Source of the DNA: Enterobacter chengduensis
GTDB lineage: Bacteria > Pseudomonadota > Gammaproteobacteria > Enterobacterales > Enterobacteriaceae
Reading direction: 5' to 3'
NCBI RefSeq assembly: GCF_001984825.2
Contig: NZ_CP043318.1
Span: 3,534,001-3,598,000 of the forward strand
Length of the DNA: 64,000 nt
Shown here: positions 12,357 through 34,463 of the stretch, one piece after another
Position numbering within the stretch: the first letter of the stretch is position 1
How the letters are laid out: every line of letters begins with the position of its first letter
Position numbers and translations under genes: made by a program
The notes under the pieces: generated by a model
Database searches by the model: none
Seen by the model: only the letters and a program-made list of their open reading frames with translations
Told to the model about the DNA's origin: nothing

Positions 12357-12404
12357 GCTTCCAGTTGGCTCGAATTGCTTCGAGCGTTAATCAAAATTCT
12401 GTCT

Positions 12405-29196: not shown

Positions 29197-29226
29197 AAAA
29201 AGGCGACCTCACGGTCGCCTTTTTTA
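29197..29226. terminator. Bidirectional terminator between pta and the transketolase operon
   Basis: AAAAAGGCGACC-TCAC-GGTCGCCTTTTT is a perfect stem with T-runs on both strands. It immediately abuts the stop codon of the minus-strand transketolase gene. Confidence 0.92.
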
Positions 29227-30180
29227 TTACAGCAGCTCTCGCGCCGCCGAGACAATGTCATGCGCCGTCAGGCCGTACTCCTTCTGCAGGAAGTCCTGGG
29301 TTCCCACCTGCCCGTAACGCTCCTTGACGCCCACCCGCCGCATCGGAACCGGGCAGGTTTCCACCAGCACTTCCGCCACCGCCGATCCCAGCCCGTTGTG
29401 AATGCTGTGGTTTTCACAGGTGACGATACGCCCGGTTTTCTCGGCGTAGTTTTTCACCAGCATCCGGTCGATGGGCTTCAGGGTAAACATGTCGATGACC
29501 GCCGCGCTGACCCCCTCCTGTTCCAGCTGACGCGCCGCCTCCAGCGCTTCCGCCACCATGATGCCGTTAGCGATCAGGGTAATATCGGAGCCTTCGCGCA
29601 GCACGTTGCCTTTACCAATGGTGAAGGTGGAGCCCGGCGCATACACGCTCGGCGCCTGCTTGCGGATGGTCCGCACCCAGTAGAAGCCGTCAAGATCGAT
29701 AAGCTGGCGCAGCACGTCTTCGAACATCACCGCGTCGGTCACCTCCAGCACCACCGAGTGTGCCAGACCGCGCACGATGCCCATATCTTCGAACGACATA
29801 TGCGTTCCGCCGTTGTGGCAGGCCGTCACGCCCGCGTCTGAGGCGATCACCTTCACGTTGTTGCGCTGATAGTCCAGGGACATAAACAGCTGGTCAAAGC
29901 AGCGGCGGCTGGCAAACGCGGTGAAGGTGTGCACGAACGGCTTACGCCCGGTAAGCGACAGCCCCGCCGCGGTGCCGATCACGTTGGCCTCCATAATGCC
30001 GCAGTTAATCACGTGCTGCGGATAATCGCGCGCCACGCCGTCCATCGCCATCGAGCTCATCAGATCTGCTTCCAGCGCAATGATGTCACTTCCGGCCTCA
30101 ATCTGCTTTGCCACGAAGCCCGCGTAGACCTTACGCATCTCAACGGCGTCTTTCTGTCCTGCCGGTGCAACCTTAATCAT
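29227..30180 (-). CDS. Transketolase-like, C-terminal subunit (split enzyme)
   Basis: This 317-residue protein corresponds to the pyrimidine-binding and C-terminal domains of transketolase. The catalytic glutamate that activates thiamine diphosphate is Glu64 in NCGIMEANVIGTAAG; DAGVTACHNGGTHMSFED and NGIMVAEALEAAR follow. Its last gene partner is the N-terminal subunit, overlapping by eight bases, so the two should assemble as one enzyme. Similar split pairs include apulose-4-phosphate transketolase and the Salmonella homologues at this locus. The substrate is unknown; the PTS genes suggest a phosphorylated ketose. Confidence 0.9.
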   Translation of the reverse strand: MIKVAPAGQKDAVEMRKVYAGFVAKQIEAGSDIIALEADLMSSMAMDGVARDYPQHVINCGIMEANVIGTAAGLSLTGRKPFVHTFTAFASRRCFDQLFMSLDYQRNNVKVIASDAGVTACHNGGTHMSFEDMGIVRGLAHSVVLEVTDAVMFEDVLRQLIDLDGFYWVRTIRKQAPSVYAPGSTFTIGKGNVLREGSDITLIANGIMVAEALEAARQLEQEGVSAAVIDMFTLKPIDRMLVKNYAEKTGRIVTCENHSIHNGLGSAVAEVLVETCPVPMRRVGVKERYGQVGTQDFLQKEYGLTAHDIVSAARELL

Positions 30181-31003
30181 GTGAAGCCTCCAGTTGGCGA
30201 ATCGTCTCGTTAAGGGCCGCTTTGCTCTCCGGGGTTAACCGCAGGTGGTGCGAATTGCTGAGCTGCTCCAGGTAGGGCACCCCCTGCCCTTTGATGCTGT
30301 CCAGGATCACCACCAGCGGACGCGCATCGGCCTCCGGTACCCGCGACGTCACCTCCAGCAATGCCGGGATGTCATCCCCTTTCACCGTCACCACGTCATA
30401 GCCAAAGGCACGGAATTTCCCCTCGAGGTCGAACGCGCTGATGATCTCGTCCAGCTCGCCGTCGAGCTGCTGTTTGTTCCAGTCCACAAACACCGTCAGG
30501 TTGTTCAGACGATGGTGCGCGATAAACTGGAAGGCCTCCCAGCACTGCCCCTCGTTCAGCTCGCCGTCGCCGACGATGCAGAAGACCCGATTCGGCCGTC
30601 CGGCCAGCCTGTGGGAGAGCGCCATGCCGCCGGCGATGGAAATCCCCTGTCCCAACGAACCGGTGGTAGCATCTACGCCGCGCGTTTTCAGACGGTCCGG
30701 GTGGCTCGGCAGGCGCGTCCCGTTTTGGTTGAGCGTGCTCAGCTCTTCTGTCGGGAAGTAGCCCTTGATCGCCAGGGTGCTGTAGAGCGCGGGGCCCGCA
30801 TGGCCTTTTGACAGCACAAAGTAGTCTCGCTCCGGCCAGTCCGGATCCGCCGGATCAATCTTCATCACCGCGCCGTACAGCACGGCCAGGGTTTCAACCA
30901 CCGACATACTGCCGCCGTAGTGGCCAAAGCCCAGCTGCGTCAGGGATTTCAGCGTCTCAAGACGGATCTGACGCGCGAGTTCGGTTATCTCTTTCTCATT
31001 CAT
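30173..31003 (-). CDS. Transketolase-like, N-terminal subunit (split enzyme)
   Basis: This 276-residue protein corresponds to the thiamine-diphosphate pyrophosphate-binding domain. The GDG...N motif is in VGDGELNEGQCWEAF and TVFVDWNKQQLDG, and GHYGGSMSVVE and LSKGHAGPALYS are the usual substrate-channel segments. It overlaps the EIIC gene by four bases and the C-terminal subunit by eight. The pair lacks the covalent linkage of housekeeping TktA/TktB, so it is a dedicated catabolic transketolase rather than a duplicate; that reading is inferred from its operon. Confidence 0.91.
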   Translation of the reverse strand: MNEKEITELARQIRLETLKSLTQLGFGHYGGSMSVVETLAVLYGAVMKIDPADPDWPERDYFVLSKGHAGPALYSTLAIKGYFPTEELSTLNQNGTRLPSHPDRLKTRGVDATTGSLGQGISIAGGMALSHRLAGRPNRVFCIVGDGELNEGQCWEAFQFIAHHRLNNLTVFVDWNKQQLDGELDEIISAFDLEGKFRAFGYDVVTVKGDDIPALLEVTSRVPEADARPLVVILDSIKGQGVPYLEQLSNSHHLRLTPESKAALNETIRQLEASHD

Positions 31004-32397
31004 GATTTGGCTCCGGTGTCTTCCTGCGCGTTACCGCCCGCAGGTCTGTTTTTTGCGAAGACGTTGTACGCCACCAGCAGCGCGAACAGCGCCACAACCA
31101 GCCCGGTGATGGCAAGCGGCGACAGGAAGCGCGCGAGGTTGCCGAGCACAATCCCAACCGCGCCGAAGTCGGCGTCCGAGAAGGTGGTGTTGGCAAAGCC
31201 AATGGCGCCCAGCACCGGCAGCAGCAGAACGGGCAGGAAGGTGATCAGCAGGCCGTTAGCAAAGGCGCCAATCATGGCCCCGCGACGCCCGCCGGTGGCG
31301 TTACCGAACACGCCCGCCGTTGCGCCGGTGAAGAAGTGCGGCACCACGCCCGGGAGGATCAGCACCCAGCTAAACTGGCCGCAGATGAACAGCCCCACAA
31401 TTCCGCCGAGGAAGCTGAACAGGAAGCCAATCAGCACCGCGTTTGGCGCATACGGATACACCACCGGGCAGTCCAGCGCGGGGCGCGCATTGGGCACCAG
31501 CTTTTCCGAAAAGCCGGTAAAGGCCGGAACGATTTCTGCCAGAATCAGGCGCACGCCCTGCAGGATGATGAAGACGCCTGCCGCGAAGGTGATCGCCATG
31601 ATGATGGCGTAAACCAGGTAGTTCTGGCCGCCGCTGAAGGTGGCTTCAACGTACTCGCGCCCGGCGCTCACCGCCATGATCAGGTAGATAATCATCATGG
31701 TCAGGGAGATGGAGATCGAGCTGTCGCGCAGGAAGCTCAGGTTCTTCGGCAGGTTCATCTCTTCCGTTGAGCGGGATCCTTTGCCGACCTTGCTGCCAAT
31801 CCAGCCGGACAGCACGTAGCCCAGCGTGCCAAAGTGGCCGAAGGCAATTTCATCGTTGCCGGTAATGCGCTTCATGTAGCGTTGCGCAATCGCCGGGAAG
31901 AAGGCCATGATCAGGCCGAGGATCAGCGAGCCGGTAAAGACCAGCCCCACGCCCTCAAAGCCCGCGACCGTCAGGATCACGCCAATCATGCACGCCATGT
32001 AAAACGTGTGGTGCCCGGTGAGGAAGATGTACTTCAGGCGGGTAAAGCGCGCGACGATAATATTCGCCACCATCCCGAAGGCCATAATCAGCGCGGTCGC
32101 TGCACCGTATTTTTCCAGCGCTATCGACACAATCGCTTCATTGTTTGGAATAATGCCCTGGATCGTAAAGGCGTGCTCAAACATGCCGCCCAAAGGATTT
32201 AACGACCCCACCAGCACCGTGGCGCCGCCGCCCAGCACAATAAAGCCGAGAATGGTTTTAATGGTCCCTTTCACCACGTCCGAAAAGGCTTTTTTCTGCG
32301 CAACCAGACCAATAAGCGCAATTAAACCGACCAGCACCGAAGGGACTTTTAAAATATCAACAACGAAATTCAGCGTTTCAAGGATAAACATATCCAC
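31000..32397 (-). CDS. PTS EIIC, ascorbate (UlaA/SgaT) type
   Basis: This 465-residue membrane permease of the AG superfamily has about eleven helices. The GTIKTILGFIVLGGGA and FLTGHHTFYMACM segments correspond to the UlaA substrate-site regions. It translocates and presents the sugar for phosphorylation by the separately encoded EIIB. Unlike UlaA itself, it is linked to transketolase genes and not to an ulaD/E/F-type L-ascorbate set, so the ascorbate label is only a family name. Fifteen bases separate it from EIIB. Confidence 0.9.
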   Translation of the reverse strand: MDMFILETLNFVVDILKVPSVLVGLIALIGLVAQKKAFSDVVKGTIKTILGFIVLGGGATVLVGSLNPLGGMFEHAFTIQGIIPNNEAIVSIALEKYGAATALIMAFGMVANIIVARFTRLKYIFLTGHHTFYMACMIGVILTVAGFEGVGLVFTGSLILGLIMAFFPAIAQRYMKRITGNDEIAFGHFGTLGYVLSGWIGSKVGKGSRSTEEMNLPKNLSFLRDSSISISLTMMIIYLIMAVSAGREYVEATFSGGQNYLVYAIIMAITFAAGVFIILQGVRLILAEIVPAFTGFSEKLVPNARPALDCPVVYPYAPNAVLIGFLFSFLGGIVGLFICGQFSWVLILPGVVPHFFTGATAGVFGNATGGRRGAMIGAFANGLLITFLPVLLLPVLGAIGFANTTFSDADFGAVGIVLGNLARFLSPLAITGLVVALFALLVAYNVFAKNRPAGGNAQEDTGAKS

Positions 32398-32412
32398 CTC
32401 GCCTTATCAGGG

Positions 32413-32685
32413 TTATTGTCTTTCGAACCAGGCGCGCAGCTGCGCTTCAAGCTCGTTGATGTCGATGATGTTGTTGATCACCACCAGCTGGCTTTCCGGG
32501 ACGCTGGCGCTGGCGGCAATGTCTTTAGCCATCACGAACAGATCGGCCGCGCCCGGCGTGGCTGAGGAGAGATCGGAATGTTCAACCTCAGCGTCAATCT
32601 CCAGCTTTTTCAGCACTTTTTTAATGTTCATTTCGACCATAAAACTGCTGCCCAGGCCGGAACCGCAAATAGCCATGATTTTCAT
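32413..32685 (-). CDS. PTS EIIB, ascorbate/lactose-like type
   Basis: This 90-residue phosphocarrier opens MKIMAICGSGLGSSFMVEM, so the phosphorylated cysteine is Cys7 in the P-loop-like CGSGLGSS. It accepts phosphate from the EIIA encoded upstream and passes it to the sugar bound by EIIC. Eighty bases separate it from the EIIA gene. The spacer contains no obvious terminator. Confidence 0.9.
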   Translation of the reverse strand: MKIMAICGSGLGSSFMVEMNIKKVLKKLEIDAEVEHSDLSSATPGAADLFVMAKDIAASASVPESQLVVINNIIDINELEAQLRAWFERQ

Positions 32686-32765
32686 TGTTGTCCCCTTATT
32701 TTGAGTAGAGTACGCCCCATCACGCCGACGCGTAATGTTGTGAATAATCGGATTAAAGAATTAAA

Positions 32766-33209
32766 TCAGAAGCGGTCAATAATCGTTTTAATTTCCTCCA
32801 GGGTATTCGCCTGATGCAGTTTTTCCATATCTTCGTCGCTGGAAAATAATTCAGCCAGCGATGAGATCATCTCGATATGGCTATTTTTGTCGGGCGCCGC
32901 GAGCATAATAATGACGTCGACAGGGTCAAACTCACCGGCACCAAACGAGACGCCCTGCTTTAGTTTTAATAACGACAGCCCCAGTCCTTTGGCACCTTCC
33001 TCCGGCCGCGCGTGCGGCATGGCTAGCCCTGGTGCCAGCACATAATAGGGTCCTAACGCGTGGTGCTGCTGGATGATGGCCGTGACGTATTCAGGCTCAA
33101 TCACCTGCAAATCCAAAAGCGGCTGCGCGCAGAGTTCCAGCGCCTGCGGCCAGTCTTCCACGCTCTCCTGCAGCGTGATGGTTGTATCATATATCCATTT
33201 TTTGAGCAC
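32766..33209 (-). CDS. PTS EIIA, mannitol/fructose (PTS_EIIA type 2) fold
   Basis: This 147-residue phosphotransferase protein has its phosphoacceptor histidine at His66 in LAMPHARPEEGA, with the supporting His50 upstream. It receives phosphate from HPr. The start is a GTG at 33207-33209, placed by a GGGAG ribosome site six bases upstream; there is no better ATG. It is the first gene of the minus-strand operon EIIA-EIIB-EIIC-transketolase N-C, which runs from a control region carrying CRP-like and LacI-like sites. Confidence 0.9.
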   Translation of the reverse strand: MLKKWIYDTTITLQESVEDWPQALELCAQPLLDLQVIEPEYVTAIIQQHHALGPYYVLAPGLAMPHARPEEGAKGLGLSLLKLKQGVSFGAGEFDPVDVIIMLAAPDKNSHIEMISSLAELFSSDEDMEKLHQANTLEEIKTIIDRF

Positions 33210-33269
33210 TTTTCACTCCCGCGACACGCTTAAGATGAGCAAACTTTATTCAACGCATCGATAATTGAC

Positions 33270-33285
33270 TGCGATCGCGATCACA
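33270..33285. promoter_or_regulatory. CRP-like site in the PTS/LacI divergent region
   Basis: TGCGATCGCGATCACA matches TGTGA-N6-TCACA at nine of ten core bases. It is centred about 68 bases before the EIIA start codon and about 30 bases upstream of an AATAAAGT -10-like stretch on the minus strand. That position suits class II activation of the PTS operon. Confidence 0.7.
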
Positions 33286-33286
33286 A

Positions 33287-33300
33287 AGATAGCGCTACCA
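33287..33300. promoter_or_regulatory. LacI-family operator candidate 1
   Basis: AGATAGCGCTACCA matches the perfect operator at 33321 in twelve of fourteen bases. It abuts the CRP-like site. The two centres lie 34 bases apart. Confidence 0.62.
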
Positions 33301-33320
33301 ATGCTTAACATGCAGAAATG

Positions 33321-33334
33321 TGATAGCGCTATCA
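33321..33334. promoter_or_regulatory. LacI-family operator candidate 2 (perfect palindrome)
   Basis: TGATAGCGCTATCA is a perfect 14-base palindrome with a GC centre, the usual form of LacI-family operators. It lies between the divergent EIIA and LacI-family genes, 110 bases from the regulator's ATG. A TATACT at 33383-33388 is a possible -10 for the regulator. Confidence 0.72.
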
Positions 33335-33443
33335 AATTGCAATCACGGTGCTAAATCACAGCAAAAAAAGGGATTTAAGGCGTATACTGCCTGTCACGTG
33401 AAGCGAAGGAAAAGAAGAACGCGTCTGGTCAGCAGGAAGGTGT

Positions 33444-34463
33444 ATGTCTCTAACCCGAAAACGGCGCAGTACTGGTAAAGTGACACTCGCCGATGTCGCA
33501 CAGCTTGCCGGTGTGGGCACGATGACCGTGTCCCGTGCACTCCGCACCCCCGAACAGGTTTCCGATAAACTACGTGAAAAAATTGACGCTGCCGTACAGG
33601 AGCTGGGCTATATGCCTAATCTTGCCGCCAGCGCGCTGGCCTCGGCCTCGTCCTGGACGATAGCCATGGTCGTACCCAACCTCTCCGAAGCCGGCTGCTC
33701 GGAGATGTTCGCCGGGCTGCAGCAGGTGCTGCAGCCCGCCGGGTATCAGATCATGCTGGCAGAGTCCCAGCATCGCCTTGAGCAGGAGGAGAAATTGCTG
33801 GAGACGCTGCTGGCGTCGAACATTGCGGCCGCAATCCTGCTCAGCGTTGAACATACCGATACAGTTCGCCACTGGCTGAAAAATGCCTCTATTCCGGTAA
33901 TGGAGATGGGCGCCATGCGCGCCGATCCGATTGATATGAACATCGGCATTGATAACGTGGCGGCCATGTATGAGCTCACGGAAATGGTCATCAGGCGCGG
34001 CTATCAAAATATAGGCCTGCTGTGCGCCAACCAGGAGCAGTGGATTTTCCAGCAGCATCTTCAGGGCTGGTACAAAGCCATGCTTCGCCACCATATGTCG
34101 CCGAACCGGGTCATTAACGCGGCGATGCCGCCGAGCTTCTCAACCGGCGCGGCGCAGCTGCCTGAATTCCTGCTGGCGTGGCCGGAGCTGGATGCGCTGG
34201 TGTGCGTCTCCGACGAGCTGGCCTGCGGCGCGCTGTACGAGTGCCAGCGCAGGCGAATCAAGGTGCCGGACGATCTGGCTGTGGTTGGCTTTGGCGATAG
34301 CGACGTCAGCCGCGTCTGTCAGCCGCCGCTGACGACGATGGCGGTACCGCATCGTAAGATTGGCATTGAGGCCGGGAAAGCGCTGCTGGAGCGCCTGAAT
34401 GGCGGAGACTGGCGCGATCAAAAGCCCATCGCGTCCAGTCTGTGCGTGAGAGAGAGTTGCTGA
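33444..34463 (+). CDS. LacI/GalR-family transcriptional regulator of the PTS operon
   Basis: This 339-residue regulator has an N-terminal LacI helix-turn-helix (VTLADVAQLAGVGTMTVSRAL, residues about 13-33), hinge region YMPNLAASALAS and a periplasmic-binding-protein-like effector domain (GQ-rich SDELACGALYE, VPDDLAVVGFGDSD). Within the family the protein most resembles the gluconate/idonate-type GntR group. It is divergent from the PTS-transketolase operon and so is presumably its repressor. A GGAAGG ribosome site precedes the ATG. Only three bases separate its stop from the convergent yfcD stop, and no terminator lies between. Confidence 0.91.
   Translation: MSLTRKRRSTGKVTLADVAQLAGVGTMTVSRALRTPEQVSDKLREKIDAAVQELGYMPNLAASALASASSWTIAMVVPNLSEAGCSEMFAGLQQVLQPAGYQIMLAESQHRLEQEEKLLETLLASNIAAAILLSVEHTDTVRHWLKNASIPVMEMGAMRADPIDMNIGIDNVAAMYELTEMVIRRGYQNIGLLCANQEQWIFQQHLQGWYKAMLRHHMSPNRVINAAMPPSFSTGAAQLPEFLLAWPELDALVCVSDELACGALYECQRRRIKVPDDLAVVGFGDSDVSRVCQPPLTTMAVPHRKIGIEAGKALLERLNGGDWRDQKPIASSLCVRESC

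Follow-up and report, generated by a model that had tools for sequence, protein, structure and literature searches.

A phosphotransferase system coupled to a split transketolase in Enterobacter chengduensis: a candidate ketose-catabolic operon

Analysis of a 64,000-nucleotide stretch of Enterobacter chengduensis DNA (contig NZ_CP043318.1, positions 3,534,001 to 3,598,000; hereafter the window) revealed an operon that encodes a sugar phosphotransferase system (PTS; EIIA, EIIB and EIIC) together with the two halves of a split transketolase, TktN and TktC, and is preceded by a divergent LacI-family gene. We propose, with a probability of about 0.58, that this operon is an inducible ketose-catabolic unit, in which a ketose PTS delivers its product into the non-oxidative pentose phosphate pathway through the transketolase formed by TktN and TktC (TktNC). 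In the proposed mechanism, EIIA, EIIB and EIIC would import a ketose, presumably of 3S configuration, and phosphorylate its last carbon; TktN and TktC would act as a thiamine diphosphate (ThDP)-dependent transketolase that transfers the two-carbon head of the ketose to an aldose phosphate; the carbon would then enter the non-oxidative pentose phosphate pathway and glycolysis; and the LacI-type protein would repress the operon at two AGCGCT-centred operators. D-xylulose, yielding D-xylulose 5-phosphate, is our single best guess for the substrate, and we offer it tentatively. The genes are as follows (window positions).

29227..30180, minus strand: TktC, pyrimidine-binding and C-terminal half of a split transketolase; 317 aa, with Glu64, Asp115 and Asn123
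30173..31003, minus strand: TktN, ThDP-binding half of a split transketolase; 276 aa
31000..32397, minus strand: EIIC, sugar permease of the UlaA superfamily (EIIC-GAT); GTG start, NCBIfam label 'ascorbate'
32413..32685, minus strand: EIIB; 90 aa, Cys7 the expected phosphorylation site
32766..33209, minus strand: EIIA of the fructose/mannitol type; 147 aa, GTG start, His66 the expected phosphorylation site
33444..34463, plus strand: divergent LacI-family regulator; 339 aa, GntR/IdnR models nearest, below cut-offs

Operon content and enzyme partners of the transporter

All six open reading frames (ORFs) were present and open in the window ORF list, and the domain calls (PTS_EIIA_2, PTS_IIB, EIIC-GAT, Transketolase_N, Transket_pyr plus Transketolase_C, and LacI) agreed with the original prediction of minus-strand genes for EIIA (His66), EIIB (Cys7), EIIC, TktN and TktC with a divergent LacI-family gene. 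The predicted overlaps of four bases (EIIC/TktN) and eight bases (TktN/TktC) were likewise found, and the other gaps measured 80 and 15 bases; by gene order and overlaps, EIIB, EIIC, TktN and TktC form one gene string accompanied by a regulator, of the type known from pneumococcal ula2. His66 of EIIA lies within MPHARPEEG, and EIIC has an alternative in-frame ATG at 32391. The ORF list contained no ascorbate lactonase, decarboxylase or epimerase in the operon, and the ORF list and domain calls together contained no isomerase or kinase there.

A TktN match at E<=1e-60 was present in 63 of the 295 sampled genomes of the family, and this recurrence indicates that the arrangement in the window is not due to chance. 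Forty of the 63 TktN-bearing loci were fetched, and EIIC adjoined TktN and/or TktC in 39 of them (the ORF caller retains the longest frame, and this listing therefore misses the small EIIB genes and a few of the TktN genes); the single exception, L093, has a TktN of just 44-45% identity, and one locus (L091) ends at a contig edge. The original prediction had raised the possibility that the missing steps lie in larger homologous clusters; this was borne out for distant relatives, which add transaldolase or TalC, but not for the 40 fetched family loci, in which no further catabolic gene was seen between the regulator and TktC.

We also compared 107 loci, taken from a scan of named genomes with an EIIC alignment (best 80 of 531 confirmed stretches) and from other genomes, of which 104 had an EIIC by the criterion used. 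A transketolase, transaldolase or AlsE-type epimerase was encoded in the same operon for 43 of the 104 EIIC relatives, a count that includes two loci (L063 and L250) whose transketolases are fragments; this supports the predicted coupling of the PTS to a split transketolase through a ketose phosphate that transketolase can use. The partners were a split transketolase in 23 operons, a full-length transketolase in six, PfkB/aldolase in four, an AlsE-type epimerase in three, a split transketolase plus transaldolase in three, and transaldolase alone, epimerase plus full-length transketolase, and epimerase plus transaldolase in two each, with three other labels occurring once each. The remaining 56 were scored as having no enzyme when no such gene was linked to EIIC on the same strand by gaps of up to 350 bases; this figure is a maximum (in L208, for example, a TktC lies at another place in the locus). 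Two pairs in the set, L158/L225 and L168/L236, are the same sequence twice and give identical rows.

Transaldolase or TalC was found beside seven EIIC relatives (L187, L206, L207, L247, L250, L253 and L168), and a Vibrio nigripulchritudo plasmid carries the order EIIB-EIIC-EIIA-tal-tkt. When linked enzymes were compared with models, one transaldolase matched talAB and one full-length transketolase the bacterial transketolase model; the L187 TalC scored slightly below the TIGR00875 cut-off and above that of the sister fructose-6-phosphate aldolase model. An assignment of the linked epimerase as an ordinary ribulose-5-phosphate epimerase was rejected, because the two tested exceed the cut-off of the D-allulose-6-phosphate epimerase (AlsE-type) model. 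A PfkB kinase and a class II aldolase (identified by Pfam in L261 and L263) accompany an EIIC branch at 44-48% identity, which probably takes other sugars; only the aldolase was scanned in L262, and the PfkB/aldolase label is too generous for L065, where inspection by eye gave a PfkB-like gene but no aldolase. Extra operon genes were scanned in L206, L210, L211, L212, L247, L249, L253, L254 and L256; most resemble unrelated neighbours (HPr, RimP, NusA, a transposase, a zinc transporter and others) and three were unmatched. Possible members of the unit are a HAD phosphatase in L206 and, in L211, a glycerol-type dehydrogenase together with an SDR protein, none of them conserved.

The sugar pocket and the transketolase active site

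A maximum-likelihood tree of 105 EIIC rows (quick method, with SH-aLRT, an approximate likelihood-ratio test, as the only support; several rows have long branches) placed the window EIIC within a set of 67 rows (SH-aLRT 96) that mixes split transketolase, full-length transketolase, transaldolase, epimerase and no enzyme, suggesting that the same transporter branch works with different pentose-phosphate enzymes. In UlaA, eleven residues touch vitamin C, and another ascorbate transporter keeps them except for T86P (PMC6048161). The window EIIC matched UlaA with E 1e-50 and is about 30% identical to the UlaA-type genes of its genus; six of the ten reliably aligned contacts are changed (T86N, Y87E, I136H, Q139Y, Q195F and I358V) and four are kept (H135, H194, D314 and F362), with M410 excluded for its unstable alignment (D in one, T or A in another). 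The window protein therefore does not carry the UlaA contact set expected of an ascorbate PTS. One string of residues at the contact positions was shared by 27 of 28 split-transketolase-linked rows (24/25 and 3/3), and it occurred also in 28 of the 58 enzyme-free EIIC rows; in a 29th split-transketolase row (L224), with a sugar kinase and an aldolase nearby, the string differs. The first ten letters of that string recurred in all 79 Enterobacteriaceae EIICs of a separate alignment. In the Erwiniaceae rows, position 136 is Val and position 195 mostly Thr; these EIICs may take another sugar.

Pocket residue 86 was not Asn in any of the seven epimerase-linked rows (six distinct loci; 5 Thr, 2 Met) and was Asn in 99 of the 102 other EIIC rows; L254, which has Thr without an epimerase, belongs to the epimerase-linked branch. 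A role of residue 86 in reading the configuration of the sugar is suggestive only, since the tree implies about two independent changes.

Stand-alone copies of the PTS bear on the rest of the route. Twenty genomes carry a stand-alone PTS of this kind, and the loci were read for all of them: a split transketolase was not seen in 17 of the 20, and 15 have a single transketolase, with a frame of 668-702 aa in all but G358 (456 aa). The pocket string, read in 19 of these genomes, is that of the window in 13, and 12 of the 13 are without a split transketolase, which fits a product usable by central enzymes. The original prediction of a self-contained, unusually short pathway is not supported, as the remaining steps may be supplied by the usual central enzymes. 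A split transketolase as a general requirement for the PTS product was rejected on the 17 of 20 genomes, provided that their substrate is the same.

TktN and TktC have the make-up of a split transketolase, with adjacent genes for the ThDP half and the pyrimidine/C-terminal half, and, as predicted, with an intact ThDP motif (TktN Asp146, in the GDG motif) and catalytic Glu (TktC Glu64). All 104 TktC rows retain the catalytic Glu and 103 of them the phosphate-side Arg, and the TktN residues checked were kept in 105 or 106 of 106 rows; most of these rows are close relatives from Enterobacteriaceae and are not independent. The site check used yeast transketolase residue numbers. The closest solved sequence to TktC is the split transketolase of Carboxydothermus hydrogenoformans (6yaj/6yak; E 4e-74), and TktN and TktC would be expected to assemble into an enzyme that transfers two-carbon units.

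Alignment to human transketolase put Asp115 and Asn123 of the window TktC at the positions of H416 and D424. In the canonical site, the Asp (D424) contacts the C4 hydroxyl. Asp and Asn occupy these positions in 96 and 95 of the 104 TktC rows, respectively, and the canonical His and Asp pair was present in 8; the window TktC does not have the site of a canonical, TktA-like transketolase of the pentose phosphate pathway. In a model of TKTL1, H389 and S318 hold the phosphate of xylulose 5-phosphate (PMC6334435), and by our mapping these residues would correspond to H416 and S345 of TKT. A quick tree of 36 TktC rows, mostly picked from EIIC neighbourhoods, placed the 20 rows with this Asp/Asn (D/N) signature on one side of a branch with support of 99. 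The two changed substrate-site residues would fit a dedicated enzyme. More speculatively, the D/N clade could be a catabolic transketolase in its own right, with a distinct range of donors or acceptors, paired with a ketose-specific EIIC branch in which residue 86 reads the C3 configuration; many annotated 'ascorbate transporters' would then be ketose transporters. We regard this as possible but less likely than not.

Other transketolases were observed alongside. Several Pasteurellaceae loci (L275, L276 and L278-L283) encode another split transketolase, whose TktC is without the phosphate-side Arg and has a different site motif; in L276 it lies beside ABC-transporter-like genes (by eye) and a glycerol-kinase-like gene. 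A 541-aa metagenomic protein (P0052) has the Pfam domains of both halves and is perhaps a fused TktN-TktC of this type. The copy in a small-genome relative (G094, locus L089) is perhaps decaying: its TktC motif is GYHGGAH, Tyr replaces a conserved histidine of TktN, and a LacI-type neighbour of EIIA was not seen.

Alternative readings of the substrate

Several observations weigh against a ketose unit of the proposed kind. Ascorbate induces the pneumococcal ula2 operon 2.3 to 3.2-fold on arrays, in a UlaR2-dependent manner (PMC4324149). A homologue of UlaG, the ascorbate-6-phosphate lactonase, is present in all 15 single-transketolase stand-alone genomes, including the 12 with the window pocket, so their PTS might feed the ascorbate route. 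Of the 104 EIIC operons, 56 were scored as enzyme-free and some have PfkB or aldolase instead, and an Asp where human-type transketolase holds the substrate phosphate has no obvious fit with an ordinary phosphorylated donor.

The EIIC scores 998.8 bits against NF009549, a curated 'ascorbate' family with a cut-off of 890, although this label is a name and not a test of function. The label, the ula2 induction and the UlaG homologues favour a second ascorbate system, in which the EIIC would import ascorbate or a derived sugar, ula enzymes encoded elsewhere would produce D-xylulose 5-phosphate, and TktNC would drain it. We consider this unlikely, as six of the ten ascorbate contacts differ and the ula genes do not follow the PTS throughout: at thresholds of E<=1e-30 for UlaG and E<=1e-20 for UlaD, UlaG was present in 32 of 49 PTS-bearing genomes, each of the two was absent in 17, one or both were present in 35, and neither was found in 14, among them two Enterobacter genomes (G001 and G020) whose EIIC is 99% identical. 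Many of the UlaD matches, at 42-48% identity, may be paralogues. Among 113 Pasteurellaceae, UlaG occurred in 24 of 33 EIIC-bearing genomes, being absent in nine, versus 43 of 80 others (Fisher p 0.09), a link that would count against the ketose unit and is weak and not significant; four EIIC-bearing genomes were without both UlaG and a split TktC match. Ascorbate as the sole substrate is weakened by the pocket residues and by the genomes without UlaG and UlaD, and weakened only. The transaldolase and TalC genes beside the seven relatives and on the Vibrio plasmid would instead suit sedoheptulose (seven-carbon), or a pentose-phosphate-pathway ketose other than D-xylulose, with TktNC splitting sedoheptulose 7-phosphate directly. 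Both transketolase and transaldolase accept sedoheptulose 7-phosphate; the AlsE-linked relatives, however, point to hexuloses or pentuloses, and we see this reading as unlikely.

The active site raises two further possibilities. That the D/N signature is clade-specific among the rows compared, and that a relative (P0029) carries the automatic name apulose-4-phosphate transketolase, would agree with a non-standard ketose, for instance apulose or a tetrulose, handled by a correspondingly specialised TktNC; this appears quite improbable, given that EIICs of the same branch pair with split transketolases bearing the canonical His and Asp (L206, L207, L209 and L213) and with a full-length transketolase (L154). 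TktNC could also be no more than a spare pentose-phosphate transketolase, controlled by a promoter that responds to a sugar but not specially tied to what the PTS imports, and the Salmonella TktC (STM14_2885/2886) was reportedly found by Shaw in 2018 to contribute to the pentose phosphate pathway. Against this, a TktC match of at least 60% identity was found in 19 of 140 Pasteurellaceae genomes, and 17 of the 19 adjoin EIIC, which makes a spare enzyme highly doubtful; of the other two, one (G1149) lies beside an EIIC remnant, and one (G1195) is partial and without an EIIC of this type.

If the ketose-catabolic unit is real, a common and probably misnamed transporter branch would gain a function joined to central metabolism and a short list of testable sugars, and the natural transketolase variant would be useful for work on substrate range. 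The unit is ordinary-looking and probably misnamed in annotation.

Regulation, distribution and relation to known systems

The divergent intergenic region contains two AGCGCT-centred sites and a CRP-like site, and the operon is bounded by a likely terminator.

33321..33334: likely LacI-type operator, a perfect palindrome, TGATAGCGCTATCA; occurs once in the window
33287..33300: second likely operator, AGATAGCGCTACCA; intergenic region
33270..33285: CRP-like site, TGCGATCGCGATCACA; intergenic region
29200..29225: likely terminator shared with pta, a G+C-rich inverted repeat with flanking A/T runs, read from the sequence

Comparison with the intergenic regions of 55 relatives revealed exactly two AGCGCT-centred sites in 47, three in six, one in one and none in one; loose CRP-like matches were present in 39 of the 55, a count that comes with no chance estimate. 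The window regulator scored best against GntR/IdnR-type LacI models, all below their cut-offs. The divergent LacI-type protein is likely a local repressor acting at the two operators. On either side of the operon in the window lie pta and yfcD. The sole Rfam match in the window above the gathering score was a nuoG leader RNA at 12358-12399 on the minus strand.

The window EIIC is 98-99% identical to those of E. mori, E. wuhouensis and other Enterobacter, and an EIIC at 95% identity or more was present in 32 of 36 genomes of the nearest relatives or the same genus. Relatives of the locus were found in Enterobacter, Salmonella, some E. coli, Pasteurellaceae, Bacillaceae and one enterococcal plasmid, and bee-gut Gilliamella have the PTS without the transketolase. 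The predicted Salmonella cluster at the same locus was recovered in Salmonella subspecies (L125 and L173), where the operon lies beside yfcD with pta downstream, a 506-aa ORF separating TktC from the pta-sized ORF, and where TktN and TktC are 86% and 92% identical. In E. coli the operon occurs in 126 of 5426 complete genomes, all within the 60-80% identity band, and the ten copies listed are all at 76.3%; the copy of strain D10 is not next to pta but some kilobases away from pgtA and pgtB. Of 99 plasmid records that match EIIC, 49 are from Pantoea; the listed ones measure 0.14 to 0.63 Mb and are about 77% identical. Three Enterobacter genomes (G012, G018 and G007; L062, L063 and L068, respectively) have a further EIIC (57% identical), accompanied by a separate LacI-type regulator and an AlsE-type epimerase, a full-length transketolase in L068, a transketolase fragment in L063, and an apparent fructose-type PTS downstream. 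Aggregatibacter kilianii has three EIIC copies, one of which (L168/L236) is accompanied by an AlsE-type epimerase and a transaldolase and has Met at pocket position 86.

The arrangement is already known, and the window holds the Enterobacter copy of a widespread operon: it is not new because Streptococcus pneumoniae ula2 (ulaR2-ulaB2-ulaA2-tktN-tktC) combines EIIB, EIIC, TktN, TktC and a regulator, with UlaA2 29% identical to UlaA (PMC4324149). Apart from the ula2 work, the literature search, which left most subscription papers outside, found no test of the operon's substrate. Two strains deleted for ulaR2 grew less well in vitreous humor in vitro, and for one of them the deletion also lowered growth in the animal eye (PMC6780617). 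Among the 120 hits listed (of 6709) in the search for a pneumococcal UlaA2 sequence, which are mainly from enterococci and their relatives, pneumococcus was not named; a plasmid copy from Enterococcus gallinarum with the ula2 layout carries the D/N signature. What this analysis adds is the comparative evidence on the EIIC pocket, the enzyme partners and the D/N transketolase clade.

Like ula2, the window operon groups EIIB, a UlaA-type EIIC, TktN and TktC and comes with a regulator of its own. Going by its published gene layout, ula2 differs in having a PRD-type activator rather than a LacI-type protein and no separate EIIA among its five genes, and it is induced by ascorbate. With the ascorbate PTS (UlaABC with UlaG, UlaD, UlaE and UlaF) it has the EIIC superfamily in common, four contacts being kept and six changed. 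The split transketolase of C. hydrogenoformans has a separate C-terminal chain, as in the window, but by alignment keeps the canonical pair, His and Asp, at both substrate positions, unlike the window TktC.

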